Source of the DNA: a virus
Length of the DNA: 64,000 nt
Strand: one strand, 5' to 3'
IMG/VR virus record: IMGVR_UViG_3300032236_001159
Span: 21,711 to 85,710 of that record
The position numbers were made by a program, and so were the translations under genes. Positions 29,676 through 57,092 of the stretch are shown piece by piece (within the stretch, counting starts at the first letter, position 1; each line of letters begins with the position of its first letter). The notes under the pieces were generated by a model. It was not told the DNA's origin and did no database searches. It was given only the letters and a program-made list of their open reading frames with translations.

Positions 29676-29893
29676 GATTTACTAGAAACCAATTGAATTA
29701 ATAAATCTTTTATCACATCAATATCTTTTTTAATATTTTCAACATCAATTTCCAATTGCTTTGATTTTTCTATCTCCTTTAATTTATTTTCCTTTGCTTT
29801 TATATAATTTTGATAGTCACTGTCGGAGCAATTTATAATTGCTCCGCTTTTTTCGTCACGAAATAGCGATTTATTATTTTCAACAGGAATCAT
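29672..29893 (-). CDS. Small hypothetical coiled-coil protein after the DUF4815 gene
   Basis: A 73-residue protein starting MIPVENNKSLFRDEKSGAII. The N-terminal half resembles a short beta region with SDSDYQNYIKAKENKLKEIE; the rest is a charged coiled coil (DVENIKKDIDVIKDLLIQLV). It overlaps the DUF4815 stop by four bases, so the two are coupled. Probably a structural accessory or chaperone; unproven. Confidence 0.65.
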   Translation of the reverse strand: MIPVENNKSLFRDEKSGAIINCSDSDYQNYIKAKENKLKEIEKSKQLEIDVENIKKDIDVIKDLLIQLVSSKS

Positions 29894-35800: not shown

Positions 35801-37407
35801 CTAACTCCAATTATTGCCCTTACATTAGTGTTTCCGTTTATATTAATAGTTTCATTATTTACAAATGAACCAGAAACTTGATATAAAGTTAAAGCATTAG
35901 ATGACGAAATGCTATTTACAAGATATCCACTTGCTCCACTACTATTACCCTGAATAAATGCAGGAATAGATTGCGTCAATGATGTATTCAAAGTAAGATT
36001 TGTGTAAGTCTGGATATCATATAAAGATACTTCAAATTGTGTCGTATTATCAACATAAACACTATTTTTTAATTTTAAATCATATACCCTAGCAATACCA
36101 ATTTGTGTCCCAGAAGAAATCCCAGCAATTCCAGTTCTTCCATTATATAAGTTAACGTATGAAGAAGATCCAAAACCAACTGGAATTATTCCAGATACAT
36201 TATTTAAATTAACTTGTCTTCCAAGATTGAATGGAATTGCTTGATTGTAATCATTATCAGTAGTTCTTGGCTTATTTAAATCAATAATAGTATTATTGAT
36301 AGTTTCAACTTCATATCCTCTAACATATGCTTTTCCTGGACTTACTGATAAACAAAGCAAATCTTTTGATGTCGGATTTCCTTGCTTTGTTACTTGATTT
36401 TCAAAATATATACCATTATTTCCTATTCTATCATTTAAACATTCTTTTGCTGTAATATCGAATGGGGTTACATAATAATCCCCTGCCTCATCATAAGTTC
36501 TTCTTGCAAGTTCATCACGAATTAAATTATAATTTGTTTCTTTTACGAATTTTTGTAACGAACCATCTTCTAATCTTAATAATTCAATAAAATTTTCATC
36601 ATTGAAATCGTTAATACTTTTTTTAATCAAGGATGTGGATATTTTTAATCTATCTGCTCCCGGAGCAGCATAATTAGAAAAACCTTGAGCGTTATCAAAT
36701 AAATCGGTATATTCATTTGATGCAACAACAATTTCTTCATTGACTAATAAACCAACTCTATAACTTGGTGAATTAGTATATTGATCCAATATAACTGTTT
36801 CTGAATTTACAGTTATAAAAAAACCACGAATAAAATATACTCCAGATACAATTTTAGCGGCAGATCCAATAGAAGTTGAATTCGAAAGAATAGATGTTGC
36901 AAATGTAGATCCTGATCTTATTGTAGATAAAGAGTATGAAATATCTTCTAACGCAATTAAATTCTCACCATCAACAAATGTTTTTGTTGAAAAATCACTA
37001 TTACCAGAACTCTGATATTTAATATAAAGAGTATAAGTATTTCTTTCTGATTCTGAACTAGTAATATAATTTTCTACTTTTGCCTTAACGCCACTTGTTT
37101 CACCTTGAATTAATTTACCCAAAAGACTCTCAATATAAAGAGAAATTGGAATACCTAAATGGACCTCATCAATTTGAACACAGGTATATTCTGGATCATA
37201 TGCAATTTGGCCAGGAATAACCATTGAACCTTCTTTAAAAAGGTTTTTTCCAAATTTTTCAATTTGATTTTGTAAAATAGATTGCAGAGTTGTTAATTCT
37301 CTGGCCTGTATTGGAGTTCCAGGTTTAAATAAAACTCTTTGATAATTTTTCGAATCAGAAAAATCATCAAAATATGGAGATACATTTAAATTAGTGTTTT
37401 GTGGCAT
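29890..37407 (-). CDS. Giant DUF4815 virion structural protein, 2505 residues
   Basis: The N-terminal region (NLNVSPYFDDFSDSKNYQRV, LFKPGTPIQARELTTLQSIL) is the DUF4815 signature found in large baseplate-associated proteins of marine T4-like phages. A long body of beta-rich, Ser/Thr/Asn-rich segments follows. A conserved-looking centre (VDPLAESFEVSDPNGVYVTK, then a carbohydrate-binding-like VYLETANSYAVVLLSASDEY) lies near residues 1680-1780. Two GxGYxxG-type repeats sit near 1930-1980 (GYTSGSVTF, GYAIGDVLSI). The C-terminal 120 residues (SADSLMVLFDAYRDASSDIR onward) look like a lectin-type sandwich. It lies next to gp8, where T4 has gp9-gp12, so a baseplate periphery or fibre-attachment role is likely. 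It overlaps the 73-residue gene. Confidence 0.88.
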   Translation of the reverse strand: MPQNTNLNVSPYFDDFSDSKNYQRVLFKPGTPIQARELTTLQSILQNQIEKFGKNLFKEGSMVIPGQIAYDPEYTCVQIDEVHLGIPISLYIESLLGKLIQGETSGVKAKVENYITSSESERNTYTLYIKYQSSGNSDFSTKTFVDGENLIALEDISYSLSTIRSGSTFATSILSNSTSIGSAAKIVSGVYFIRGFFITVNSETVILDQYTNSPSYRVGLLVNEEIVVASNEYTDLFDNAQGFSNYAAPGADRLKISTSLIKKSINDFNDENFIELLRLEDGSLQKFVKETNYNLIRDELARRTYDEAGDYYVTPFDITAKECLNDRIGNNGIYFENQVTKQGNPTSKDLLCLSVSPGKAYVRGYEVETINNTIIDLNKPRTTDNDYNQAIPFNLGRQVNLNNVSGIIPVGFGSSSYVNLYNGRTGIAGISSGTQIGIARVYDLKLKNSVYVDNTTQFEVSLYDIQTYTNLTLNTSLTQSIPAFIQGNSSGASGYLVNSISSSNALTLYQVSGSFVNNETININGNTNVRAIIGVRDYNFSDIHQIVGNGVSFTADPVLSNQLYISQPGTVFTISTASAGISTITTTDQNFYVGINTGDIISYTKQGDTLPTYNQVYQVSTSSKSIQIIPLPSISGVCVGTLPTSASTNTDIKKATLDVLNTADVSLYSKLNKSNISNLSLTDSNITIKRSYNVTISNGAATQVLETDTSLTLLPFNEQDYNLSFVNGVIESLSDQKLIVSGRTVSLQNISQNGSAVLTVSFNKINTSTKKKIFNRCTSLIIDKSSSQGSGIGSTTFNDGLTYSQIYGTRVQDKEISLNIPDVSNIVAIIESSTSGDPSLSYLQLINLSSNILNSTKGELVVGENSKAVATLVSSTGTNQIDIVYLNENVFTIGELVTFQESKIQATIATVFPGDKNIKNNFIFDDGQRSEYLDYSRIIRKPNNSSPTRKIRIIFNNYTISSSDNGDFVGVNSYDKDRYDDYIPSVDGLRVTDLLDCRPRVSQFNSTTTSPFEFKSRIFQNTNGSATDIFAKNKNINLSYDYYLPRIDRIFLDKDGAFIINKGVPSLSPKVPNSLDSSLEIGTVYLPAYLFDTSSVKISLTTHKRYRMQDISSLDKRISNIEYYTSLSLLETDTQNLTIRDSTTQLDRFKCGFFVDNFKSSDGGDISNRLYKSSVDKNAGTLNPQPYSTSIDLLIGSESVLGIGTTSNVNADLRFVNDLGSPNLTRVGDVVCLKYSDVEYVKNPYATRTENVNPFNVVNWIGTIHLSPSSDTWIETRKTEKISDIEGSYNSAIQQLGVDTNTGLSPIDWGSWETTWTGSQTTNGPALFTQQTGSTLTSSTDWIATSGLHQSRNPANGAMMQSQDRTNTYKDSFINFSNQTTITSRNQTRQGIQYGVTSRFDTTNLGDRVISRDIITHMRSRNIEVIAKRLKPNSQFYAFFDNIDMSNYIIPKLLEVSMISGTFSTGETVIGILGSKSIKFRLASQNHKYGPYNSPSEYYSINPYDSSSTISSSYSSTTGLLNVDTASLELQSNSSFYGCVSNGMRLIGQTSGAIADIKNLRLISDNSGTFIGSLFIPDPTSPSTPVFTTGNKTFTLTTSSTNSTISGFAQSSAETNFSSSGTLDNVESTTLRIRNANISRDVKTDDRKTSETDTRLVASTSFINRTVTQTRWVDPLAESFEVSDPNGVYVTKCDIFFKSKSTNNLPITLQIRTMSTGLPTQTILPFAEVILDPDKVRISDDASVPTTFTFPSPVYLETANSYAVVLLSASDEYNVWISRMTETDVSTLTRPEAERIVVAQQPLLGSLFKSQNGSTWDASQLEDLKMTLYRANFVTSSASVRFYNPNLDIGNNQIAALRPNPIQMYSKSSLVGIGTSISAADQANLINGVQIFQKNNSNFSGKLRSVLGGISTGATGTLTITNPGSGYTSGSVTFQNKNLVAVSGYGQGAKANLTVIGGVAVAATVSVGGTGYAIGDVLSIASTDTGNLGKNLLITIPNTAGIITSINSLIVDNIQGKIDSTDSTKYITYNGQTGIVTMANASVTSLIDITTGLRIKVNHNNHGMYSSQNKVTLSGIEPDLSPLKLSASYSSSSTSDIPLSSSVGIFTSFENIPVGSANTGYVIIKNEIIGYTGVNTSTNSLTGIARGPIAGSYSANDLVFKYELNGVSLKRINKTHTITDSYPIDLDEYNLILDTSIDGADRTTSNVNGYPELFFSQRKSGGTYESTNPIVGFEKGPKATQNIPFSIIRPNIQTLLPQTTNISARIRTFSGTSADGTETSFVDQGFEDISLNSNNILNSTRIIASKINESNNLGNYPGAKSFTLEMVLSTGDPKVSPMIDLDRVNIITIMSRLNSPVSNYATNSSVNSLTDDPHAAIYVSKIIKLKQSADSLMVLFDAYRDASSDIRVMYRLLRDDTSSQQQGFELFPGYSNLNNNGDVIDPKDNNGLPDKLVIPSVNFNDLGSYEFTAHNLAPFNGFQIKILMSGTNQALYPKIKDLRAIATKS

Positions 37408-39020: not shown

Positions 39021-42000
39021 TTATTTACTTTTAAATAATCCTCTAGTTCTTGTGACTTCAGGTGCAGTAGAAAGACCAATTAAACCATTATTTACATTCA
39101 ATGTAAATTGTTTTGGTGAACCGATTGCTCTATTTTGGTAATCGTATATTTTACCCCAACTATAATTTCCATAGAATCCATTTGTTATTGATTGTGTATT
39201 TGTCACAAAATTAATTGAATTAGTCAGTCCGGGTCCAGGACTAAAACTGCAAGTTACTGTAACAATCCCAACACCAGATGATTCTACATTTTCTGCACGA
39301 TAAACACCATCAATAAATGTATTAGCAGTTCCTACAACTACCCAAGGGGTAGAACTTGTAGTAATTCCAGTCAAAGCATGTCCACATTGAACATTACTAT
39401 TATAAATTACAAAATAATCTCCAACTGAAATTCCACTGGATATTACCCCATATGTATTAAGAGAAGAATACCCAATACCTAGAGTGCTATTATCGTAATT
39501 TTCAGATTTTAATTTAAATTTAATTTTGGGAATAGTAGATCCTGTTCCAACACTGGTATCAATTCCTACAATAATTCCAAAATCACCCTTTGCTTTGATT
39601 GAAATTATTTCTTCAATTTTTGTTTTTTCTGGTTCAATTAATACTTTTGGTGCATTATTTAAATCGTAACCAAAACCGGGATTTGTTATTGTAATTGAAG
39701 TTATTATTCCAGATGTTGTATTTGAAGTTGCTGTGGCAAAATTATAAACCGAATCACAATAAATCATTGTAGCGCCAATTCCGACAGAAATGTACCTATC
39801 TAAATCCGAAGAATAATTAATAAATTTCAATATATTTAATTGATTTGATGATCTTTGAGTCCAATTTTGAAGATCTTTGGAATAATATAAAATTCCACTG
39901 GAATCTAATAATGCATATAAATTATATAAACTATTATAATGAATATCTACGAAAGTTCTTAGAATATTTGGTGTTATAGTAGTCCAAATATTGCCATCAT
40001 AAGAAACAAATATTGTGCCATTGTTTCCAACCACTACAAATTTTGTTCCAGTCCAAATTATTTTATTTAAATTTTGCGATGTAACATTATTGGAACTCCA
40101 GAAAGTTCCAATTCCAGAAGTAACAATTGTTCCATTATTTCCAACAGCAACAATAATATTACCAAATGCAATTGAATTTAAATTTTCTGAAGTATTTGAA
40201 GAAATTTTGACAAATGAAGTACTACCTACACCAATGGCAGAGAAAATTGCGCCAGAATAACCAACAGAAAACCATTTATCCAAAGTTTGAGAATATTTAA
40301 TATCAGATAAAGATGATATATATGTACTCGCAGATCTAGTTATAATTCCAAATACAGAAGTTTCTTCGTACTTATCAATTTCACTCCAAGAAGATATTGT
40401 AGTCCCAAATCCAACTGCAGATACAATTTTTCCATATTGTCCAACAGCGATATACTTATTTGTGGAACCAATACCAATAGAATTAAATGTTATTGTTTTT
40501 GCATATCCAATATTAGTTAATGATTGTAATGATTTAGCATCAGTCGTAATAGCAACAACTCCAAAACTTCCAACTGCCACAATTGGATTTGAAACAACTA
40601 CTGATAACAATGATGCAGTAGTAGATAATCCACTAGATATAGTCCAATTTAAAATTGGATCTTTATTTTGAACTGAAACCGTAGATATTGAAACTTTAGG
40701 TGAAACAGTATAAGCATATCCTATACCACCATCTGATATAATAATAGAAGAAATTGTACTGGATACTGAAACAACTGCTTTTGATATTGATGTTGTTGTG
40801 TCTTTATTTTCAATTATCAATATATTTCTATCTGATTCCGAAAGATTATCCACATCAGTAAATAAAGGATAAGCATTATTTACATATATTGAAGTATCAG
40901 TGGAATTTACTTGATTAATAATTCTAGTTGTTGGTCTAATTGTTGATATTAAACTTGGTCTTGCCTTTGATACTAAAGAACCTTTGATAATTCTATCTTG
41001 AGTTTGCTTTGACCACTTTAAAGGTCTAAACTTACTGGGATCTGTATTGATACCGATACTATCATAATTGTAAGTATCAAGTTGATCAGAAGATACTATT
41101 TGCTTAACTACTCTTTCAAATTGCTCTCTATCCAAATTATCGTAAATATTCTCTCCAATTGTAATCGTATCTCCCTCTTTGATAGTTTTTGGTGGAGTAA
41201 TTGTTTGTACATCAAGTGAAGAACCCCTATAGAATATGACAGAACATTTTGAATTTGCTTTTGGTGCTTCATTAAATACAATTCTAGTTCCTGTAAATGT
41301 ATATGAATAATTTGGAGATTGAAGTATATCGTTCAAATAAACAAATAAATTATTTTTAAGATCCAAATCGGAACCGGGCAGTTTCTTTAAATCCACTATC
41401 TCTATAGTTCCGTCAAGTTTGGTTTGAGTTAAAGTAAATTTCTTACGAGAATTATTAAAATATTGAGAAAAATCATCAAAGAAAATAAATTGACCTGGAT
41501 AAAATCCACTAAATTTATCATTTAAAACTTCTGTTACTGTAATTTTAAACTCATTAAATGATGATCCAGCATTTGGATTTGTTGTTAAACCTACTACTTT
41601 AAGTATGTCTCCAACTTTATATCCAGTTCCAGGACTATCTAAATTGAATTGGATGACACTAGAACCAGATCCAACTTGAACAGAAACCTTTGCATTAATT
41701 CCAGATCCAGTTGAACCATTAGTATAAGCAATTCCAAGATTACTATAACCAAGAGGAAGATCAATATTTACATAAATTGGGGATGATGACGTGTATCCAA
41801 TGCCACCATTAACAATAGTAAAATTGGATATAGTTCCACCAACACCAATAGTTGGAATTATAGAAGCACCAAAACCTACAGTAGATGCAATACTGACACT
41901 TGGGGGGGTTCTATAACCGCTTCCAGCACCTTTTATGGCAATTGCGTTTATAGTTCCCCCAACAGAAACAGATGCTGTTGCAGATGCACCTAGAAGTGGC

Positions 42001-45000
42001 TGATACCCATATCCAGTAGTGATTGCAACATTAACGATTTTTCCAGCATTTGGAACTCCAGATAAAAATTTAATTGTATTAGTTCCGGGAGTGTCGATTG
42101 AATAGTCTACTCCTGGGACTTGAAATACATTGTTTATAAGAATAATTGGATTGTTATTAATATCAGTACTGTCATTCGTATTTGTGTAAAGACCAACAAC
42201 AGAATTTCCATTAGATTTTAATGCAAATTGAGTTGCAGCAATTCCAGTGAAATCTGTTGAGATATCATCTAAAATTAAATTAACATCATTTGGTTGCGAT
42301 GAATCATATGCCCTTGAGAATACTCTGCCATTAAATGACGAAGAAGTTGCAAATTGTGGATCAGTTGATGTTATTGCTGGTCCATATGGTGGAGTAGAGA
42401 AATAGATTGTATCTTTTATGATATTAAAATCGCCAGTATATACTGTAACTGCTGCGCCTATAGTGTGTGCGGATGCAACTGAACCCATAAACGAACGACT
42501 GACATTGATAATATTAGTAGATCCAATCCCAATAGAATTAATTTTTAAATATTCATTATCAATTTTTAATATATCATTTGCTGTTATTGAATTAATTCCA
42601 GAAGAAACATATATTGAAGTTGAAGTAATTCCAATAGATGAAGAAAGTCCTATTATAATATTTTTTCTATGGATTGCACTTTGAATAATATTATCTATAG
42701 AAATAATAACATTTTGATTTGATTCTTGTAGACTGAATGATTGTATTTCAGAACCAAGAGATGATAAATTGAATGGAGATGAAATTGTTGTAGATAGTCC
42801 AGAAATCTGAAAACTATTTTCATCTATTTTGCGAACAAAAATATTTGATGGTAATTTCTTTGTCCCTAATATTGTTGGAGACAAGTAAAGATTATCTGCA
42901 GGAGCAGATCCACCAATATCTCCTCCGGAAATGATAATTTGATCAGTAGAAGCATAACCAGATCCACCATTAACTACATTCACCAAACTAATATCTTTAT
43001 TTGAATCTCTATAGATATTAAAAATTGCTCCAGTTCCAATTCCAGAAGAAGATGATGCTACACTCACATAAGAAGCATTAGCAGTTCCAGTTCTAGTTGA
43101 AGAAACTTTAGAAATTGTAAAATATAAGTTATTAGTGGGAGTAGATCCGCCAATATATGTACCTGCAATGGAAATTTGCTGCCCTACAGAATATCCACTT
43201 CCGCCATCAATTAATTGAATTGATGTTCCAATTGGAATTCCAGTTCCCGCATTATAATTGATTAATACTTGGAATAATGCACCAGTTCCAATTCCAGTAT
43301 TTACTGTTGATGGAATAGGAGTACCAAAACCAAAATACTGAATGGATGGACCAGCAGGAACTAATGTAGTGCTAATTCCAGTAACAATTCCACTATATGG
43401 AACATATTTGTTATACCCATTTTCAAATATTGCACTTCCAATTCCTGCACCAACTGCCATTATCACATCTAATGGACCTTGGGCATATGATGTTGTAGCA
43501 ATTCCAATTGCTGTACCAACTCCAGAATTATAAACAATTTGCTGTCCAGATTGGAATCCGTGATTTGGAATAATGATTTTATCATTTAGTAAATCTATTA
43601 CTGTGGATGCGGAACCAACAAATTCTTTATAGAATAGTGGATAACCAGAAGATGTAAGTTTGAATGAAGAAAGACCTACAACCGAACCTCCAATTGTACT
43701 TGTAATTCCAGTGAACTGTGAACTAATATCATCAATTTGCAATACTTTATTCGTTTTGTTTAAAATATATGTTTTTAGCGCAGTTCCTTCTGGAAAATAT
43801 ACTCTCTCTACTGATCCATCATCTAACATATCATCTTCATATACCATAGAAAAATTATTTTTGGTATAAAGAGAACTTATATTATCAATTTCTACAAGTA
43901 ATGATGGTTCCGATGATGAAATATTTACTTTCATATTGGTAGATTTTGCAATACCAAGATTCACAGATTCAGTAGTAGCTACCCCAATTATATTCAAATC
44001 CGAAAATTCTTTAAATCCAGAAGGATGAATAATGGATTTAACAGATTCTTTCCAAGTTGAATATGGAACTTCTCCCTTAATTGAATATGAAAATTTCTGA
44101 TAATAATTATTATCGGATAATCTTTGTTGATAATCATTCAAGTATCCAATATTATCATTAAGATTGTGAATCTTTTCTCTTGTGACCCCAAGTGAAGCAG
44201 GAAGATTAAATTGACTTACGAATTTTACTACTCCATTTAATTTCGAAATTTCGCCATAAAGTTTATCGCCAGGATTTAATGAACCTTTTGCATCTATCAT
44301 TCTCAATTGATTAATGTCATTATCCCAACCATTTTCCATCACTTTAGCAGAAAAATTAGTAGATGTAACTTTTTCTCCAGAAAAATATTTGGCATCATCA
44401 ATTAGATTCATTTCAAATTCTGGCATATCTTTTCTGTTTACAACATAACCAAGTGTTAAATCTTGATTGTAAGTTCCAAATTTTCCAGTTTGTAAACCAA
44501 CCATACTATAATCTAAAGTTTTATTTGTAGTATTGATTCCAGTTACTGTGAAGAAATTATATCCATAATTTCTTGAGTTGTAATTTGCAGAACTTGCAGT
44601 TCCAACGGATAACCTACATTTTTCTATGAATATTTGATCACCAACTTCAAATGGGAAAATAGAAATAGATGATCCATAACCAGTTGAAATATATGGAAAT
44701 TGTGTTGGGTCATTAACCAATTCAATTGTACCAAAACCAGTTAATTCATTTGCGTATATATTATCAATTTCATATCCATTTGAATTATTATAAGGAACAA
44801 TTCTGAGAGGATCTTTTAAATTGAATGAATTTGTATCTATAGATACACTATTCACAGATCCGCCTTGGATTCCTGCGATTAATTTTATTTGATCATTTCC
44901 GATTACTTTTAATCTTGGTGGAGTATTGTATTTTTTCCCGCCAGTTAAAATACCAACATAATCTACTCTGGATATCTCTTTAATAATACAAACAGCAGGA

Positions 45001-48000
45001 ACGCTTAATTGCGGTAACATTGTTGGATCTGTTGGATAATCAAATCCATCTTTCACTCTATCAAATGATAAAACTTTTCCTATTTCTTTTGAGATAGGGT
45101 ATAAAATGGCATTACTTCCAGAAGTGCTTCCAATAGAACTTATTGATGGTAGAACACTATATGATTTTCCGTATGAATTTAATCTTATTTGTGATATTGG
45201 CCCAGATGTATTTTTAGAATTAGTATCATAAAATACAGAAGAAATCCCCAACACTTGGGTGTATGCTGTATATTCTGGTTTTTGATCTAAATTAAATTTA
45301 AATGAAGACACACCAATCGCAATAATAGATTGCTCAGAAGAAAAAATACTAGAACGAATATCAATTTTATTATGTCCAATAACCTCATCATCCGAAGATA
45401 ATTGAAGTTTGTCAATATCATTAATTGATGTTGCGGTAAAATTATAATATAAAACTGGAGGAATATTTCTATTATTAGTTTCTAAAATTACAGAATCATC
45501 TGATCTTGTAATTGCAAGTTTATTAATTTCTTTTTTGTCAATTTCAAATTTCTTTTTAAATGTAGGATCTGTATAGAATTCTAATTTAGTATTTACTAAT
45601 GATGGATCTGAAACATCAAATACTACTTGATTTCCTTTTGAGAATGATAAAGGTGGATTTATGAGTGCAATATTATGAGTGCCAATTCCAGAATTTGTAA
45701 ATGGCAATGCAGCACCAACTTTTACATCATATGCATATTGACAAAGTTGAATTTTATCTGGATTTTGTTTTAGGACATAATATATCGAATTATCTATCAA
45801 CCCACCAATAGGCGAAGTTCCAGAATAATAAATGACTTTATCACCACTTTTGAGATTATTTGTTCCCAAATTAATTGTAGAGGTACTACCAAAAGATACC
45901 GAGTTTGGGGAAAAACCTATTAAATTTGTTGTAATTTTTCTATTCTTTATATCAAATCTAAATGATATATTTTCTGTTCTTGAAGGTACAATTGTGAATT
46001 TAATTTTATCTCCATCAAGAAGATTATGATTTTGCGAAGTTGTTACAATTCCTGAATAATTTTCAACTCTTGCAGTTACAGTTTGATATGTAGATCTTAT
46101 TGAATGCGAATAACCAACATTTGAATTATACGCAAATAACAATGAATTTAAAGTTGTTCCAATCCCAACCGAAGATGTGAATCCTATAGTTGAAATTCCA
46201 AGATAATCATTTCCATAATTTACAGCATAAATTGTTTGATTTTGCGACAAACTGAATACATTAGATGGAGAATCATAAACACTTAATCCTATACCTGCAG
46301 AATAATTATAAATCAACTGCTGTCCGGTATAAAACTTGTGATTTGGAATATAAATTGATTTTGTTGGGACAAATCTATTGACTATTGTACTAGTCCCAAT
46401 TCCAACAACGGAATAGTTGGTTCCAGATAATCCAAATCCAATCGTATTAGTTGGATCAAAATAGATCATTTTATTTTCAGGCAGTGCTACTGGAATTGAA
46501 TCCGTTTCTGTAAACTGAAATTTATTTGGCAATAATACAACATTTTCAATTCCTGCAGTATGAATTCCCCCGAAAGCAGATCTATTAACTAATAATTGTG
46601 AAGTTTCTGGAATAATTCCAGTAATAGTCATTGTTTCAGTTCCAATCGCAATAGAATCATTAATTTCAAATCCAAATGTGTCAGTTACTTTTATACTAGT
46701 AGATAAACCAGTAACAGAAGAATTTTGAATACTAGTTGTCAATCCAGTTGTCTTTTGGTTTACGAATATGGTTTTTGTGCCTTCTAGTTTCGATAAAGAA
46801 ACTGTTGATACGCCAGAAATAATAATTTTATCGCCATTTAGTAATGTATGAGGATAAGAAGTAATGCCAACAATGATATTACCTCTAGATGCAAAAATAA
46901 CATCAGAAAATGTAGTTACGCCGACTACCATATTTGATATTGTTTTTCCTTTTAATCTACTAATTTCGGCACTAATACCTGTTCCTTCTTGTGCCTTATT
47001 AAAATTAACAAGATCCCCAACATTATACCCATCTCCGAAAGAATCTATAAAAATTGAAGAAATTCCAGATTTTTTAATTTGATTTACATAGAATTCTTGC
47101 TTTAGAGATGGAGAAATTTTTTCTAAAATTTGATATCCAGAATTTATTGAATCTAGAAAATAATTACTAATATTTCTAGTTAAATTGTATTTTGAAATAT
47201 CAGTATCTTGAGTGAAACTTGGGTCAAAATTTTCGAAAATTGGAGTATCTTTAAAATAATCAGAAACAATATATGGATATTTTGGATATAATTTTCCACT
47301 AATCAAATCATATGTTGCAAAATAAGCATATGTTCCATATGGATAATCTGGAGTTATACAAAATCTCCCATTATATTCATCCAAATCTTCAGAAGCATTA
47401 TATTGATAGTCCTGTACAAAAAAACCATTCACAAAAGATGATGGTCTAAGTAAAGGTGATGATATTGACTTTTTGTTGTAACTTGAAGAAATAATCTTTA
47501 TAGTTTTATCGGAAAAACTTGTATAACCGTAAGGTCCGTATATTGGATTTCCATCATATGCCCATCCAATAATTGGTGAGTGTACAAAATCAGATAATAA
47601 TTCTTGATTATTATCTTGAATATTATCATTAATATTTTTTCTCAATTGTCTTGGCAGATAAAAATTAATTACTCCCAATTCAAGATTTTGATCTATATTT
47701 GGATAAGTTATTGTTTCGTCATCCCCTCCATAATATGAAATCAGGTTTTTATTTTTTTCAATTTGATTTATTTTCCATTCAAATACATTTGCAATAAATT
47801 GTAAACCTGTTCCTCTTCTTATCGCATTTAGAGATGTATTTGAAGGCGAATAACCAACACCACCATCAACGACATTAAAAGAAGTTATACTTCCATTTGT
47901 GATAATTGGCTGTAAATCCGCGTATTTGCCATCTCCATATATTTGTACCTTAGTGCCATTATCATACCCAGAACCACCATAGATGATTTGGACATCAGTA

Positions 48001-51000
48001 ATAGTACCATTTATTATTACTGGTTTTAATAATGCAGAAGAAATTGAAGATAATCCAACATAAGGTCTTCTATGATAATTGATAATATCGGAACATCCAT
48101 AAGAAACTCCGCCATCTTCAATATAAACACTTTCGGCTACCCCAAGAACTACTGGTGTTAAAATTGGTACTACAATAGAGCTAGATCCTATAGCAGATGT
48201 TGTTTCAATTTGAATTTGAATAGGAGGGTACGCAAAAGTATGAGTTCCAACTCCCAATGATTCTATATTAACATATTTTTTATTGACATAATTTAAATTT
48301 GATGAGGTTGTTCCAATACCAACATCAGACAATTTAAATTTATTTTCGTCAATAGTTGTAATACGATATTGAATACCAGTTGAAAGACCAGAAATTGAAG
48401 TATTTGTGTTTGAATATAAAACTATATCACCATCTTTAAAACCGTGTTGTTTTGCGTAAATATAATTATCAAAAGTACTAATTCCTGAAGTTTGATATTC
48501 TAATGATGGATATAAAGTTGATGATACATTTACAAATCTATTAGAATAATTAGATCCTTCATTTTTGACATATATTTTTGTAATCGTATTTTTACTATTC
48601 AATGTTCTAAATTCATGAAAACCAGAACTGATTCCAGTAATATTAACGGTATTAATACCAGATAAAACATCAACTCTATTTTTATAAAGTTTAATTGTTT
48701 TTGAATTTATTACATTTATAAAATAATTTGCATTATCAATCAAACCAGGAACATTTGAATTTCCATTTGAATAATAAGTTACTTCTTCATAATTATCAAA
48801 ATTATGATTATCAATAAAAGTTATAGTTTCAAGAGAAGTATTGATGGCTGTCAGATCTGCTCTAAATTTTGCAATAATTCTTGATTTAACTAAATTTGAT
48901 TCCAGTATTGCGCCATTTCCATTACCACCAACTAAAGTAATTTTTGGTTTTCTGTCATACCCAATACCAGCAGAATTTATTTTTACTTCTTTTAATGATC
49001 CAGAAAGAATTAATCTTGCTTTAGCACCATTTCCGTTTGTATCTTTAATGACAATTTCTGGGGAATTTATTACGTCATAATTTGAACCACTATTTGTAAT
49101 CAAAATAGAGTCCAATCGTCCATAATAGATATTTTCATCAAATAACGTTGGTGAATATAAATCTACTCCATTAATTAATAATCCAATTCTTCTATTAAAT
49201 GTAGTTCTATCTTCCTTTTTATCGAAATAATTAATATTCTCTTGAAGATTGAATTTTCTTAAGAATTTTTGATCCTTAATAGTTTTATTTTCATATCCAA
49301 ATTTGTAGATATAATCAGAAGTTATTCCAGAATTCAAAGTAATAGATTTATTTGCAAATAAATCGGTATTGCTGTACGATAACGATATAGAATTTTCATC
49401 TATTTTTCTTACAAAATAGTATCCAGTTGCAATTCCAGAAAAAGAAGATGAGTTGTAATAAATTTTATCACCGGTCAATAAATTGTGATTTGGAGCATAT
49501 GCAATAGATGTTTGTCCAGTTCCTACTGTAGAAACTATAATTTTTGTATCTGTAGAAGTAAATTTATAATTTGGAAATCCTGATGATGCAACGTAAGAAT
49601 ATTTTTTGTCTTTATCAATATATGTATTTTGAATGGAGCCATTTATTGATGATGCAAAATCGAAATAATCAGAACTTGTTTTTGAAACTTGTTTTTTGAT
49701 TCTAATTACATTTGAAGTATTTACAGAAAATTCTGAATTTACAATAATTTGATTTTCTGATTCAACTGTAGTTACAGTAGATGGTATATCAATACTATCT
49801 GTAATATAAATTTTATCATTTTTATAAAATTGAACATTGTCCTTCAGCACTATACGATAAGTATTTGGACTTACAGTCGAAATGCCAACTATGTCGTGAT
49901 ACGTTGGAATATTATAAATCCATTTGTTAAAATTTATATTCTCAGATAAATTCGCACCAAAAGAACTGAGAGAAATTTTATCTCCTTTTTTCAATCCCGA
50001 TGAATTTCCAAAATCAATATTATCAATAACATTAATAACTCTAAATTGAACTAAAGATGACGATTCAGTGCTAATATATGAATAAGCTAATTTATCTTCA
50101 TATATTAAATTCCCAAAATCTAATTCTGCTGATAGACCACTAATATTTAATAATTGATTATTTGTTTTATCTGTATATCTTAGATTTAATTTTGTTGAAT
50201 CTGTTGTTTTTGCAATTAAAGTACCAGAATATGCAAATCCAACAGTAGAATCAACTGTAATTGAAGACGCAGACGATTTAATTGGTTCTATTACTTTAGT
50301 TGTTCCTGTAGTTTCAAAATTGCCAGTAAATGATGTAGAATCTAATGATATTTCATATAAATCTTTATTTTCTACTGGTCTATATTCTACGTTATAAATT
50401 GAGGCAGAAACAGTACCAATTCCACTTATGTATTGATTTAACGTAGATCCTTTAAGAAGAATTGGATCGCCACCAGAAACTTTTTCAACTAAAATATTTT
50501 TAGTTGTAAGATAATTATTATCAGATGGCCTCAACATATAATTTTGAGGCTTTAATACTTCTACTTCTTTTCCATATAAAACAGAAAAAAGAAGTTTAAA
50601 TGACTGATCTGTTCCTTTTGCTTTATAAAAGTCTTTTGCCCTTGATAAAATATTAGTTAAAGAGATTCCGGAAGTAAAATTTCTCTCTTCAAATCCAGGC
50701 AAAAATTGATATTTAAATTTTTTAAAGAATTCAAAAAAGAAAATATAACTTAAATTATTTAAAGTAGATCCTTGAGTGTGATCAGATGCTTCAGTTATTG
50801 AAAAATTTAAAAATTCTGGATTATTATCTTTTTCTAAACTATCAATACCACTAAAACCACGAATGCACCCTAAAAATGAATTTGAAGTTTTTGAAGTATA
50901 TGTAATGATTTCATTATCAATTTTTATAAGTCCATAAGCATCTGGATATCCAATTGTATGTGATACGGAAATTACATCATCAAATGATAAAACGTCGGAA

Positions 51001-51227
51001 AGTAAAATTGATGGAAGTTGAATATCAATAAGTGTTTCTTGATTAAAATTTTCTATACTCTTATATTTTTGTAAATTCGTTGATAAATCTACAACACCAG
51101 TTTGGTGTTCTTGTGAAATATAATACTGAGTTAAAAATTCTTGAAAAAGAGGAGATTCTTCATTCAAAAATTCAGGAATTTGTGAATCAAGAATGTGATT
51201 AATTTTTATTCTTTTAATTTCTGACAT
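39021..51227 (-). CDS. 7: Giant gp7-like baseplate wedge protein with YHYH domain and beta-propeller, 4068 residues
   Basis: One uninterrupted frame of 12.2 kb, a fifth of the window; T4 gp7 is 1032 residues. The N-terminal 250 residues (IKINHILDSQIPEFLNEESP, FFFEFFKKFKYQFLPGFEER, YKAKGTDQSFKLLFSVLYGK) look like the wedge-initiating gp7 of marine T4-like phages. Repeats of the GxGYxxxPxVxI kind recur from about 700 to 3100. Residues about 1217-1325 form a YHYH-type domain (HSPIIGWAYDGNPIYGPYGY through GTYAYFATYDL). Residues about 3540-3825 hold about five repeats with VGxxGxIxxS and WT signatures, a BNR/Ycf48-like propeller. It sits between gp6 and gp8, as gene 7 does in T4. The last 200 residues are Thr/Gly-rich. 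The extra domains suggest host-surface contact. Confidence 0.88.
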   Translation of the reverse strand: MSEIKRIKINHILDSQIPEFLNEESPLFQEFLTQYYISQEHQTGVVDLSTNLQKYKSIENFNQETLIDIQLPSILLSDVLSFDDVISVSHTIGYPDAYGLIKIDNEIITYTSKTSNSFLGCIRGFSGIDSLEKDNNPEFLNFSITEASDHTQGSTLNNLSYIFFFEFFKKFKYQFLPGFEERNFTSGISLTNILSRAKDFYKAKGTDQSFKLLFSVLYGKEVEVLKPQNYMLRPSDNNYLTTKNILVEKVSGGDPILLKGSTLNQYISGIGTVSASIYNVEYRPVENKDLYEISLDSTSFTGNFETTGTTKVIEPIKSSASSITVDSTVGFAYSGTLIAKTTDSTKLNLRYTDKTNNQLLNISGLSAELDFGNLIYEDKLAYSYISTESSSLVQFRVINVIDNIDFGNSSGLKKGDKISLSSFGANLSENINFNKWIYNIPTYHDIVGISTVSPNTYRIVLKDNVQFYKNDKIYITDSIDIPSTVTTVESENQIIVNSEFSVNTSNVIRIKKQVSKTSSDYFDFASSINGSIQNTYIDKDKKYSYVASSGFPNYKFTSTDTKIIVSTVGTGQTSIAYAPNHNLLTGDKIYYNSSSFSGIATGYYFVRKIDENSISLSYSNTDLFANKSITLNSGITSDYIYKFGYENKTIKDQKFLRKFNLQENINYFDKKEDRTTFNRRIGLLINGVDLYSPTLFDENIYYGRLDSILITNSGSNYDVINSPEIVIKDTNGNGAKARLILSGSLKEVKINSAGIGYDRKPKITLVGGNGNGAILESNLVKSRIIAKFRADLTAINTSLETITFIDNHNFDNYEEVTYYSNGNSNVPGLIDNANYFINVINSKTIKLYKNRVDVLSGINTVNITGISSGFHEFRTLNSKNTITKIYVKNEGSNYSNRFVNVSSTLYPSLEYQTSGISTFDNYIYAKQHGFKDGDIVLYSNTNTSISGLSTGIQYRITTIDENKFKLSDVGIGTTSSNLNYVNKKYVNIESLGVGTHTFAYPPIQIQIETTSAIGSSSIVVPILTPVVLGVAESVYIEDGGVSYGCSDIINYHRRPYVGLSSISSALLKPVIINGTITDVQIIYGGSGYDNGTKVQIYGDGKYADLQPIITNGSITSFNVVDGGVGYSPSNTSLNAIRRGTGLQFIANVFEWKINQIEKNKNLISYYGGDDETITYPNIDQNLELGVINFYLPRQLRKNINDNIQDNNQELLSDFVHSPIIGWAYDGNPIYGPYGYTSFSDKTIKIISSSYNKKSISSPLLRPSSFVNGFFVQDYQYNASEDLDEYNGRFCITPDYPYGTYAYFATYDLISGKLYPKYPYIVSDYFKDTPIFENFDPSFTQDTDISKYNLTRNISNYFLDSINSGYQILEKISPSLKQEFYVNQIKKSGISSIFIDSFGDGYNVGDLVNFNKAQEGTGISAEISRLKGKTISNMVVGVTTFSDVIFASRGNIIVGITSYPHTLLNGDKIIISGVSTVSLSKLEGTKTIFVNQKTTGLTTSIQNSSVTGLSTSIKVTDTFGFEINDSIAIGTETMTITGIIPETSQLLVNRSAFGGIHTAGIENVVLLPNKFQFTETDSIPVALPENKMIYFDPTNTIGFGLSGTNYSVVGIGTSTIVNRFVPTKSIYIPNHKFYTGQQLIYNYSAGIGLSVYDSPSNVFSLSQNQTIYAVNYGNDYLGISTIGFTSSVGIGTTLNSLLFAYNSNVGYSHSIRSTYQTVTARVENYSGIVTTSQNHNLLDGDKIKFTIVPSRTENISFRFDIKNRKITTNLIGFSPNSVSFGSTSTINLGTNNLKSGDKVIYYSGTSPIGGLIDNSIYYVLKQNPDKIQLCQYAYDVKVGAALPFTNSGIGTHNIALINPPLSFSKGNQVVFDVSDPSLVNTKLEFYTDPTFKKKFEIDKKEINKLAITRSDDSVILETNNRNIPPVLYYNFTATSINDIDKLQLSSDDEVIGHNKIDIRSSIFSSEQSIIAIGVSSFKFNLDQKPEYTAYTQVLGISSVFYDTNSKNTSGPISQIRLNSYGKSYSVLPSISSIGSTSGSNAILYPISKEIGKVLSFDRVKDGFDYPTDPTMLPQLSVPAVCIIKEISRVDYVGILTGGKKYNTPPRLKVIGNDQIKLIAGIQGGSVNSVSIDTNSFNLKDPLRIVPYNNSNGYEIDNIYANELTGFGTIELVNDPTQFPYISTGYGSSISIFPFEVGDQIFIEKCRLSVGTASSANYNSRNYGYNFFTVTGINTTNKTLDYSMVGLQTGKFGTYNQDLTLGYVVNRKDMPEFEMNLIDDAKYFSGEKVTSTNFSAKVMENGWDNDINQLRMIDAKGSLNPGDKLYGEISKLNGVVKFVSQFNLPASLGVTREKIHNLNDNIGYLNDYQQRLSDNNYYQKFSYSIKGEVPYSTWKESVKSIIHPSGFKEFSDLNIIGVATTESVNLGIAKSTNMKVNISSSEPSLLVEIDNISSLYTKNNFSMVYEDDMLDDGSVERVYFPEGTALKTYILNKTNKVLQIDDISSQFTGITSTIGGSVVGLSSFKLTSSGYPLFYKEFVGSASTVIDLLNDKIIIPNHGFQSGQQIVYNSGVGTAIGIATTSYAQGPLDVIMAVGAGIGSAIFENGYNKYVPYSGIVTGISTTLVPAGPSIQYFGFGTPIPSTVNTGIGTGALFQVLINYNAGTGIPIGTSIQLIDGGSGYSVGQQISIAGTYIGGSTPTNNLYFTISKVSSTRTGTANASYVSVASSSSGIGTGAIFNIYRDSNKDISLVNVVNGGSGYASTDQIIISGGDIGGSAPADNLYLSPTILGTKKLPSNIFVRKIDENSFQISGLSTTISSPFNLSSLGSEIQSFSLQESNQNVIISIDNIIQSAIHRKNIIIGLSSSIGITSTSIYVSSGINSITANDILKIDNEYLKINSIGIGSTNIINVSRSFMGSVASAHTIGAAVTVYTGDFNIIKDTIYFSTPPYGPAITSTDPQFATSSSFNGRVFSRAYDSSQPNDVNLILDDISTDFTGIAATQFALKSNGNSVVGLYTNTNDSTDINNNPIILINNVFQVPGVDYSIDTPGTNTIKFLSGVPNAGKIVNVAITTGYGYQPLLGASATASVSVGGTINAIAIKGAGSGYRTPPSVSIASTVGFGASIIPTIGVGGTISNFTIVNGGIGYTSSSPIYVNIDLPLGYSNLGIAYTNGSTGSGINAKVSVQVGSGSSVIQFNLDSPGTGYKVGDILKVVGLTTNPNAGSSFNEFKITVTEVLNDKFSGFYPGQFIFFDDFSQYFNNSRKKFTLTQTKLDGTIEIVDLKKLPGSDLDLKNNLFVYLNDILQSPNYSYTFTGTRIVFNEAPKANSKCSVIFYRGSSLDVQTITPPKTIKEGDTITIGENIYDNLDREQFERVVKQIVSSDQLDTYNYDSIGINTDPSKFRPLKWSKQTQDRIIKGSLVSKARPSLISTIRPTTRIINQVNSTDTSIYVNNAYPLFTDVDNLSESDRNILIIENKDTTTSISKAVVSVSSTISSIIISDGGIGYAYTVSPKVSISTVSVQNKDPILNWTISSGLSTTASLLSVVVSNPIVAVGSFGVVAITTDAKSLQSLTNIGYAKTITFNSIGIGSTNKYIAVGQYGKIVSAVGFGTTISSWSEIDKYEETSVFGIITRSASTYISSLSDIKYSQTLDKWFSVGYSGAIFSAIGVGSTSFVKISSNTSENLNSIAFGNIIVAVGNNGTIVTSGIGTFWSSNNVTSQNLNKIIWTGTKFVVVGNNGTIFVSYDGNIWTTITPNILRTFVDIHYNSLYNLYALLDSSGILYYSKDLQNWTQRSSNQLNILKFINYSSDLDRYISVGIGATMIYCDSVYNFATATSNTTSGIITSITITNPGFGYDLNNAPKVLIEPEKTKIEEIISIKAKGDFGIIVGIDTSVGTGSTIPKIKFKLKSENYDNSTLGIGYSSLNTYGVISSGISVGDYFVIYNSNVQCGHALTGITTSSTPWVVVGTANTFIDGVYRAENVESSGVGIVTVTCSFSPGPGLTNSINFVTNTQSITNGFYGNYSWGKIYDYQNRAIGSPKQFTLNVNNGLIGLSTAPEVTRTRGLFKSK

Positions 51228-55343: not shown

Positions 55344-55482
55344 CTTCTTCTACTTTTCTGAGAAGATCTTCAATTTCTTCTCTAAGAGTATTATTAATCA
55401 CTAATATTTTATCTGTGTATAATCTATGTTGAATTGTTTCCAGTAGCAAATCTTTCTCATAGTCATCAAATTCTAGTTTCAT
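55330..55482 (-). CDS. Small acidic helical protein, 50 residues
   Basis: ATG 55482 to TAA 55330: MKLEFDDYEKDLLLETIQHR followed by a charged helix ending RKVEEDEYL. It is the first gene downstream of the non-coding repeat region. Short acidic helical proteins with an EFDDYEKDLL-like start are common early phage genes. Function unknown. Confidence 0.55.
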   Translation of the reverse strand: MKLEFDDYEKDLLLETIQHRLYTDKILVINNTLREEIEDLLRKVEEDEYL

Positions 55483-55718
55483 ATTTGAAATGTGTGTGCG
55501 TTTCTTTTTATATAGTGTTTTTTGTCCTTTTGTGAGTGTTTTTTCCTGGGGAAATTTTTTGTTGCTTTTGTAAACCTGTGCGGGAATTTTAAATCCTGGA
55601 AATTTTTTTTAATTGACGTGTATATATTCGAGCGTTTTCAAAGTTTTGTAGGTTACAGGGACCCTTTAAATTAGCTTTTAGGGTTAGGACGCTTTATAAA
55701 CCTTATGAGGCGAGCAAC

Positions 55719-55738
55719 GGGGGGTATAAATAACCCCC
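55719..55738 (+). repeat. G/C hairpin with a late-promoter octamer in its loop
   Basis: Arms GGGGGT and ACCCCC (stem 55720-55738, six pairs) enclose a seven-base loop; together the last stem T and loop read TATAAATA (55725-55732) on the plus strand. No plus-strand gene follows directly. It could be a structured late promoter, a terminator-like stem or chance. Confidence 0.55.
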
Positions 55739-55745
55739 ACGACCC

Positions 55746-56109
55746 CGATATAACTGTCCATTTAGCACATTTTTATTCTAATACACGAAACATACCCCCA
55801 GGTACGCTATAACGAAGGCGACGATATAACTGTCCATTTAGTGCAATTTGATTCTAATACACGAAACATATCCCCAGGTATAATATAATTTAAGAACATT
55901 ATCCTCCCTGTATAAACGAATGAGTAAGCTATAATATAACACGAAACACTGTCTAATACTTTATAGTATTGACGAAGTTGCAAAGTATAATAGAATAGAC
56001 GAAATGCAATCTAGTATATTTTGTCAGTGTGTTAAGTATCAAACAGTGGTGCTTATTAAGAACCATTTAGTACTGCTTGATTCTAATACACGAAACATAT
56101 CCCCAGGTA
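55746..56109 (+). repeat. Three dispersed copies of a direct repeat with core TTCTAATACACGAAACATA
   Basis: Copies at 55746-55804, 55822-55880 and 56063-56109. The first two share CGATATAACTGTCCATTTAG at their start, 76 bases apart; the third lacks that part. All share ATTCTAATACACGAAACATA followed by CCCCAGGTA with few differences. The intervening sequence is not conserved, so this is neither a tandem array nor a CRISPR. Read on the minus strand the core gives GTTTCGTGTATTAGAAT, with TAGAAT as a possible -10. Confidence 0.9.
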
Positions 56110-56177
56110 TGTAAAAGACGAAGATCTATAAGAATAACTGATAGTATAGGATTACACGAAGTATCTGATAGCACGAA
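55785..56177 (+). repeat. Cluster of eleven ACGAA pentamers
   Basis: Found at 55785, 55812, 55861, 55916, 55941, 55972, 55999, 56090, 56118, 56156 and 56173. Fewer than one would be expected by chance in 393 bases of this composition. On the minus strand each reads TTCGT and is often followed within a few bases by an A/T-rich hexamer of the TATAAT kind. Confidence 0.85.
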
Positions 56178-56195
56178 TTAGATGTTCTTATGATG

Positions 56196-56501
56196 TCAAT
56201 TTGAAGTGGGAACTTTCTCATACTTAGTACAAAATCTTGGTTTGATTTGTTCCTGTAACTGTGCCTCACAATCATTATTAGCAACTATTGAGAATTCAAA
56301 GTTTTCCAATCCAAACTCTGCCATATGATAATGTATATTCTGAACTACAAATCTTTCATTTGATTTTCCTATACACTTTACACAGGATTTGTGAACCCTC
56401 CATCTATTTTTTGGGTTCATACTTTTACCGACATAAACTATTTCATTAGTAATAGTGTTTGTTATGATATAAGTATAAACAGTTTTTAGTGCTTTCTCCA
56501 C
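56196..56501 (-). CDS. Short GIY-YIG endonuclease-domain protein
   Basis: About 101 residues consisting of little more than a GIY-YIG catalytic module. TVYTYIITNTITNEIVYVGK carries the paired motif (VYTYI ... YVG), followed by the basic NPKNRWRVHKS with the expected arginine and histidine, and a later glutamate. No DNA-binding tail is present, so it may be a degraded or minimal homing nuclease of the SegA-type family. The open frame extends to a TTG at 56570, but the extra residues would be encoded by the CTGTGGAGAAA repeat. GTG 56501 has GGAG five bases before it and is preferred. It lies between repeat-rich non-coding blocks. Confidence 0.7.
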   Translation of the reverse strand: MEKALKTVYTYIITNTITNEIVYVGKSMNPKNRWRVHKSCVKCIGKSNERFVVQNIHYHMAEFGLENFEFSIVANNDCEAQLQEQIKPRFCTKYEKVPTSN

Positions 56502-56546
56502 AGTTTCTCCACAGTTTCTCCACAGTTTTATAATAGTTCTCCACAG
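56496..56546 (+). repeat. Array of CTCCACAG octamers at helical spacing
   Basis: Copies at 56496-56503, 56507-56514, 56518-56525 and 56539-56546 (steps of 11, 11 and 21 bases), with a fifth, inverted, at 56592-56599. TTCTCCACA differs by one base from the bacterial DnaA-box consensus TTATCCACA. The array also covers the start region of the GIY-YIG gene. Confidence 0.85.
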
Positions 56547-56605
56547 GATGATTTTTATAAACCATTGCAAATACTAGGTATTGCTTATAACCTGTGGAGA
56601 ACTAT
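56533..56605. repeat. 15-bp perfect inverted repeat
   Basis: Arms ATAGTTCTCCACAGG (56533-56547) and its exact complement (56591-56605), separated by 43 A+T-rich bases that include a smaller imperfect palindrome around 56565-56590. No T-tract follows, so it is not a standard terminator. Possible origin, protein-binding or recombination site. Confidence 0.85.
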
Positions 56606-56689
56606 CAATTCATCCCCCCCTTATAGCATAACATAACTCAAAATATTATGTTGATGCCTTGTGCCAGTTGTGTAAGTGTCTGGAAATAC

Positions 56690-56718
56690 TTGACTTTTGG
56701 GGCGGTGTGTGTTATAAT
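56690..56718 (+). promoter_or_regulatory. Strong sigma70-type promoter on the plus strand
   Basis: TTGACT (56690-56695), exactly 17 bases, then a perfect TATAAT (56713-56718). It is preceded by TGTGCCAGTTG (56661-56672 area), as in the minus-strand cassettes of the early region. Transcription would run to the right through the 52-bp duplication and converge on the minus-strand gene ending at 56904. No plus-strand reading frame of note follows. Confidence 0.7.
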
Positions 56719-56738
56719 TAGCGGGCTTAGACCCATAA

Positions 56739-56842
56739 AAAGTAGAAGGTTTAATCAAGCATTAACACATAAAAGAATTCATTCACACATAAAGTAGAAG
56801 GTTTAATCAAGCATTAACACATAAAAGAATTCATTCACACAT
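56739..56842 (+). repeat. Perfect 52-bp tandem duplication
   Basis: Two identical adjacent units (56739-56790 and 56791-56842), each beginning AAAGTAGAAGGTTTAATCAA and ending TTCATTCACACAT. Within each unit ACACATAA-like words recur. It lies just downstream of the plus-strand promoter and in no gene. Complete identity indicates a recent duplication. Confidence 0.95.
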
Positions 56843-56903
56843 AACAATCAACAATATAACATTATCATCATATCAACACATAATGTTTTTTAATACATTT
56901 ATT

Positions 56904-57092
56904 TCATTCTTTTAATACACCATATTCATTCAAAATACCACCAAACCATTGATGATTATATACTCCAACATACAATTTACCAATAGAAAAACCAAATTGT
57001 TCTTCATGTTCTGACTGACCATGACTCCAACCAAGATAGAATAACTTGGTATGAATGAATCCATAATCAGAAGTGACACGCATATCAATCAT
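56904..57092 (-). CDS. Small hypothetical protein, 62 residues
   Basis: MIDMRVTSDYGFIHTKLFYL followed by GWSHGQSEHEEQFGFSIGKL and a WFGGILNEYGVLKE tail. No family is recognised. It overlaps the 71-residue gene upstream by eight bases and is the last gene of the right-hand cluster before the non-coding block. Confidence 0.6.
   Translation of the reverse strand: MIDMRVTSDYGFIHTKLFYLGWSHGQSEHEEQFGFSIGKLYVGVYNHQWFGGILNEYGVLKE

Follow-up and report, generated by a model that had tools for sequence, protein, structure and literature searches.

Location and organization of the module

The DNA analysed here, referred to below as the window, is a 64-kb stretch corresponding to positions 21711-85710 of an 85.7-kb viral contig. 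The closest cultured relatives of this phage are Kyanoviridae, T4-like Synechococcus phages. An array of ACGAA repeats in the window is flanked on the left by minus-strand structural genes (gp25, gp6 and an ORF of 4068 aa, 39021-51227) and on the right by small genes, which are likewise on the minus strand. The 4068-aa ORF and another one of 2505 aa (29890-37407) are very large structural-type ORFs. The array forms the left part of a module of ~1.2 kb (55.6-56.9 kb), located upstream of the phrog_1574-gp25-gp6 operon, in which ACGAA iterons are followed by a DnaA-box cluster, one strong sigma-70 promoter with a conserved leader, and a low-stability segment (Table 1). Position 56195, where the gap described in an earlier note ended, is the point at which a GIY-YIG gene interrupts this larger module; the feature runs on to ~56900. 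The position upstream of phrog_1574-gp25-gp6 is common to dozens of T4-like cyanophages. Judged from its sequence, the repeat-rich gap belongs to a control region that is conserved among phages of cyanobacteria (freshwater cyanophages) and carries no annotation. No credible Rfam family was found in the 54-58 kb region, and no tRNA in the 64-kb window.

Table 1. Features of the module, with positions in the window
Feature	Position	Strand	Remarks
Left border GTTTTCAAAGTTTTGTAGGTTACAGGGACCC	55635..55667	none	Conserved block between array and minus-strand structural operon
Inverted repeat GGGGGTATAAATAACCCCC around TATAAATA	55720..55738	none	Just left of array
Composite 67-nt repeat AACTGTCCATTTAG...TTCTAATACACGAAACATACCCCCAGGTA	55746-55812, 55822-55888, 56051-56117	+	Found by repeat search
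Array of 11 ACGAA iterons (WWnVACGAA)	55785..56177	+	One orientation throughout
GIY-YIG endonuclease gene, ~101 aa	56196..56501	-	PF01541, E=9e-8; inserted in box cluster
Four DnaA-like boxes TTCTCCACA	56494, 56505, 56516, 56537 (56494..56545)	+	Spacings 11, 11, 21
Fixed-length element of 47 nt between inverted boxes	56546..56592	none	Conserved TTATAAACnnnTGCAAA.AC (core alignment)
Inverted DnaA-like box TGTGGAGAA	56593..56601	-	Exactly 56 nt from last + box
Sigma-70 promoter TTGACT-N17-TATAAT	56690..56718	+	TG before second hexamer; 11/12 consensus matches
Leader without gene, presumed transcribed	56719..56900	+	Starts AGCGGGCTTAGACCCATAA, ends TTTTTTAATACATTT (56886-56900)
Candidate DNA unwinding element	56850..56910	none	Nearest-neighbour stability, 97th-99th percentile of window
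DnaA-type box forms named			TTTTCCACA, TTCTCCACA, TTATCCACA, TTTTCCCCA

When near or distant DNA matches to the array were sought in cultured phages, only the left border was matched: 36 nt of it occur at the same syntenic place in Synechococcus phage S-BM3. Variants of the border are present in most relatives. The inverted repeat GGGGGTATAAATAACCCCC is kept in three related loci (L001, L003 and L004), and the enclosed TATAAATA resembles a T4 late promoter and may act as one.

The ACGAA array

The observation in the earlier note that the pentamer occurs far above chance was borne out: all 11 copies between 55785 and 56177 are on the plus strand and none is on the opposite strand, with ~0.25 copies expected per 393 nt on one strand (Poisson P = 5e-15, uncorrected for scanning), although part of the count is due to the longer 67-nt unit being present in three copies. 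The runner-up cluster in the window has 4 copies per 400 nt; the array is unique in the contig, and in the three contigs checked each genome has a single one. The region is indeed non-coding, as no credible ORF of at least 60 aa is present in 55483-56195. Four close relatives (L001-L004, 90-93% identical) also retain it as non-coding DNA, so that a lack of conservation, which had been named as grounds for dismissing the element, was not found.

Comparison of 259 non-identical units gave the motif WWnVACGAA, with W at positions -3 and -4 and a base other than T at -1. The A/T hexamers described previously held less well: the flanks are A/T-rich, but a fixed TATAAT hexamer is absent from them. 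Helical phasing of the units was unconvincing (Rayleigh p = 0.11 at 10.5 bp and 0.02 at 10 bp). Of the two functions that had been proposed, promoter or protein-binding element, the second is the likely one, the array probably being a repeated protein-binding platform. L053 contains a dense ACGAA array (13 in 600 nt) without DnaA boxes and in another sequence setting. In P-SSM2 (L207), ~960 nt upstream of the phrog_1574-gp25-gp6 operon (846-1803) are unannotated and contain the left border and a few ACGAA copies; a perfect DnaA box is absent.

DnaA-type boxes and their geometry

In most cyanobacteria the DnaA box reads TTTTCCACA, which assays have confirmed in some of them; the consensus used here was taken from these published data (PMC4674748). 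All five boxes in the window read TTCTCCACA, a variant rather than the cyanobacterial consensus, and they are regarded as putative DnaA sites; yet the spacings of 11, 11, 21 and 56 nt are retained and both boxes of the inverted pair are changed alike. In L001-L003, which do not have the GIY-YIG gene, 6-7 TTTTCCACA boxes are found in its place. Most distances between adjacent boxes are 11-13 or 19-24 nt, that is, one and two helical turns. Host-consensus boxes at helical spacing, as in an oriC, are therefore present in relatives, and the window has five variant boxes at the same spacings. The last forward and the first inverted box are separated by 56 nt at many type-1 sites; at type-2 sites the distance is 78-79 nt (types defined below). 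The 56-nt inverted pair was also found in L001, L003, L011, L015, L017, L025, L097, L138, L173, L372, L383 and others, and alignment of the cores showed that the interior of the element is conserved (TTATAAACnnnTGCAAACACT).

When genomes were scanned for a host oriC using the variant box, TTCTCCACA triplets were, among the matches listed, scattered over many phyla and singled out no host. A second DnaA-box cluster, away from the ACGAA array, was observed in IMGVR_UViG_3300027541_000009 (G001, 239065-239128). It has its own sigma-70 promoter and leader-like start and lies directly upstream of a large GIY-YIG gene (373-aa stretch); the same arrangement was seen in L152, L128, L123, L129 and L119.

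Promoter, leader and low-stability segment

A search of positions 55450-57000 gave 13 promoter-like matches, compared with 8.9 in shuffled sequence (sd 3.3), and only one of them is strong. It lies outside the array and points away from it, and a like promoter is present at the same place in relatives; two 10/12 matches overlap the array. The leader is A-rich and G-poor, its end adjoins the stop of a convergent gene (56904-57092), and across relatives the form GCnnGCYTAGACnnCAA is found to the right of the array. No consensus RNA structure of the leader was found. Two copies of a ~51-nt tandem repeat (AAGTAGAAGGTTTAATCAAGCATTAACACATAAAAGAATTCATTCACACAT) are present in the window leader (56739-56842); L001 has one copy and L002 two, and the leader repeats differ in other phages, for instance L009.

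Past the promoter, helical stability is lowest in the stretch 56850..56910. At 22 of 27 sites, the 60-bp segment of lowest stability downstream of the promoter was at or above the 95th percentile, versus 23% of 81 control promoters; as this segment is intergenic, the comparison is confounded in part. At 69 of 85 sites the longest ORF beyond the leader is convergent, being encoded on the opposite strand.

Recovery of the module in other phages

IMG/VR loci were picked by promoter and leader alone, boxes and ACGAA not being used. This yielded 42 distinct full-length type-1 sites, which have the window's kind of leader, and 40 type-2 sites with leader GGGCCAAGATCAC. At least three perfect boxes were present at 28 of the 42 type-1 and 31 of the 40 type-2 sites, versus 0/235 and 0/243 windows drawn at random from these contigs (0/478 in all); the remaining sites, roughly a quarter to a third, fall short of three. 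On the expected strand, 35/42 type-1 sites have six or more ACGAA per 500 nt, and TTCGT, the opposite strand, reaches this density at 0/42; ACGAA arrays are present at 7/40 type-2 sites. Among 80 loci with phrog_1574, over a dozen have ACGAA arrays in the same place and direction, most of which adjoin a box cluster. The box cluster of a type-2 contig is also located upstream of phrog_1574, ferredoxin and gp25, and the address is therefore common to both types. Likewise, the address upstream of phrog_1574 and gp25 is the same in phages with and without ACGAA.

Cultured relatives were found via the leader and by direct reading. Promoter, leader and one to three boxes, all unannotated, are present in S-BM3 (L005, from 6666), DSL-LC02 (L205), S-PRM1 (L364) and S-8S55 (L365). 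Promoter and leader were matched by BLAST in S-CAM9 and S-8S53, and are also present in Sf-FS3 (L206). The leaders of S-PRM1 and S-8S55 run into a gene of the same orientation; the promoter can thus be an early promoter of the ordinary kind, and for these two phages the view that its transcript serves as a primer only is weakened.

A GIY-YIG nuclease gene in the box cluster

The gene that interrupts the module encodes a GIY-YIG catalytic domain (PF01541) and is present or absent at one site among relatives, two features of homing endonucleases. It is absent from L001-L003 and present in L426 (78%), L492 (75%) and L432/L466/L485 (53%), whereas L451 has a truncated remnant. Where both could be read, the homologues are always located between array or left border and promoter. 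The probable GTG start of the window gene lies inside a DnaA-like box, and the tandem TTCTCCACA copies, which could be duplications, overlap the gene's own 5' end.

A perfect box was found at 0/4 nuclease-bearing sites with a readable module (one of them the remnant) versus 71/92 others (Fisher p = 0.004, a descriptive value because inspection of the data had brought the association to light), and few lineages are behind this association. Base 3 of the box is changed in the carriers, to TTCTCCACA in the window, L426 and L492 and to TTATCCACA in L451, and the boxes of L432 are degenerate. This suggests that the nuclease may recognise the DnaA box. The 21 sites without the nuclease gene that likewise have no perfect box include some with other inserted ORFs and a few spurious pattern hits. 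In L378, an HNH-like ORF (PF01844, below cut-off) lies upstream of the promoter at ~6366 where boxes normally sit, and the module is box-free. A more speculative scenario, which we consider rather doubtful, is that a widespread host-DnaA-driven origin of T4-like cyanophages is parasitised by a free-standing GIY-YIG nuclease that would recognise TTTTCCACA and attack the origins of rival phages, possibly also the host oriC; the third-base variant of the carriers (TTCTCCACA/TTATCCACA) would then be a working, uncut origin.

Function of the module

Since the array belongs with DnaA boxes and a strong promoter, a replication origin is indicated. We consider it probable that the module is a replication origin of T4-like cyanophages (Kyanoviridae) that recruits host DnaA, the promoter transcript opening or priming the DNA. 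As in T4-type origins, the promoter (11/12) has an A+T-rich, low-stability stretch downstream, and as in oriE a direct-repeat cluster is conserved at a syntenic position in relatives. A search of six phage contigs gave no DnaA DNA-binding domain, compared with hits in 10 of 14 control genomes, and host DnaA would therefore be needed; some of the neighbouring ORFs were scanned for Rep initiators and gave no match. GC skew lends the origin no support: an inflection was absent at the array, the skew being monotonic through the locus in the window and in a 155-kb and a 284-kb contig. GC skew tracks the coding strand, and the genes on both sides of the locus are on the same strand, without the shift in strand composition or transcription polarity that is reported for oriE, oriF and oriG but is not required of all origins.

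While anatomy, spacings, conservation and address of the module are directly seen, we infer protein binding, transcription and all replication steps. Host DnaA would bind the boxes, which are clustered at distances (11, 21-22, 56 or 78, and 23 nt) that would accommodate an ordered oligomer, and a phage or host protein would bind the ACGAA iterons on the other side. Early in infection, host RNA polymerase would transcribe from the strong promoter into the A+T-rich stretch, where no gene runs that way, opening the duplex and possibly leaving an R-loop primer as at T4 oriF. Phage helicase and primase would then load at the opened stretch.

An origin would be the best explanation of the combined features, ahead of a transcription hub or a DnaA sink. 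A control hub at the border between small genes and structural operon, with boxes and ACGAA serving as operators for the plus and/or late minus promoters and without a role in replication, is possible but considerably less likely. It would fit the strong, conserved promoter and leader, the late-promoter-like TATAAATA at the left border, the leaders that run into a gene in S-PRM1 and S-8S55, and the fact that DnaA also controls transcription in bacteria (PMC7198777); however, the promoter faces a convergent gene in most phages and the conserved structure spans >1 kb on both sides. We regard as unlikely a DnaA sink comparable to E. coli datA, in which the boxes would titrate host DnaA and so halt chromosome initiation, with promoter and iterons forming an early regulatory region next to it. 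Such a sink, which phage copies would multiply, would fit the many high-consensus boxes grouped at one or two places in each genome, but titration needs no fixed inverted spacing, nearby promoter or adjacent low-stability segment.

Two further readings appear very improbable. The earlier note had envisaged closely packed start sites on the minus strand (TTCGT plus TATAAT). The A/T-rich flanks and the two 10/12 matches overlapping the array are in line with this, but a -10 or -35 element at a fixed distance from the pentamer is absent over the 259 units and promoter-like matches are near shuffle level, so that the proposal finds no support. Copy number and unit order vary, and the 51-nt repeat and the nuclease gene show active rearrangement, as expected of functionless debris of a decaying mobile element or tandem repeat. 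Such debris is already disfavoured, however, by the one-strand orientation and synteny retained across dozens of divergent phages and by the retention of the 56-nt pair despite changed boxes.

The start of replication in T4-like cyanophages appears not yet to have been described, and a search of open-licence papers gave no cyanophage origin with DnaA boxes. If the module is an origin, T4-like cyanophages would depend on host DnaA. DnaA has been lost or made dispensable in some cyanobacteria (PMC7198777), and the type of origin could therefore bear on host range. The module offers a single test locus in cultured S-BM3, DSL-LC02, S-PRM1 and S-8S55, and raises a clear question on nucleases sited in origins.

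Comparison with known origins

Among the T4 origins, oriE combines iterons with dependence on an early promoter, and oriF and oriG have a promoter and an A+T-rich unwinding element (PMC3016281). The module resembles oriE in its cluster of short direct repeats with an early promoter for host polymerase, and in that the iterons are syntenic in relatives (PMC3016281). The T4 repeats, however, are 12 nt and evenly spaced, whereas the cyanophage units are 5-9 nt and irregular, and the T4 review mentions no DnaA (PMC3016281), whereas the module contains boxes. As in oriF, or ori(uvsY), the promoter is immediately followed by an A+T-rich unwinding element. In T4, oriF is located near gene 25, and the cyanophage module lies upstream of gp25. 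T4 oriF has a MotA middle promoter and no DnaA, whereas the promoter of the module is of the sigma-70 type and is accompanied by DnaA-type boxes.

Clusters of TTTTCCACA DnaA boxes are shared with the chromosomal oriC of cyanobacteria (PMC4674748). Unlike the latter, the module is not beside dnaN or dnaA, has phage iterons and a promoter, and belongs to a T4-like phage, in which it separates structural from small genes. Iteron plasmid origins such as those of P1 and RK2 bring together iterons, DnaA boxes and an A+T-rich segment, as does the cyanophage module; in contrast to them, no Rep initiator gene was identified beside the array, and the module belongs to a phage with T4-type structural genes. 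On this comparison, the plan of the origin would probably be that of T4 oriE/oriF with oriC-type boxes added.
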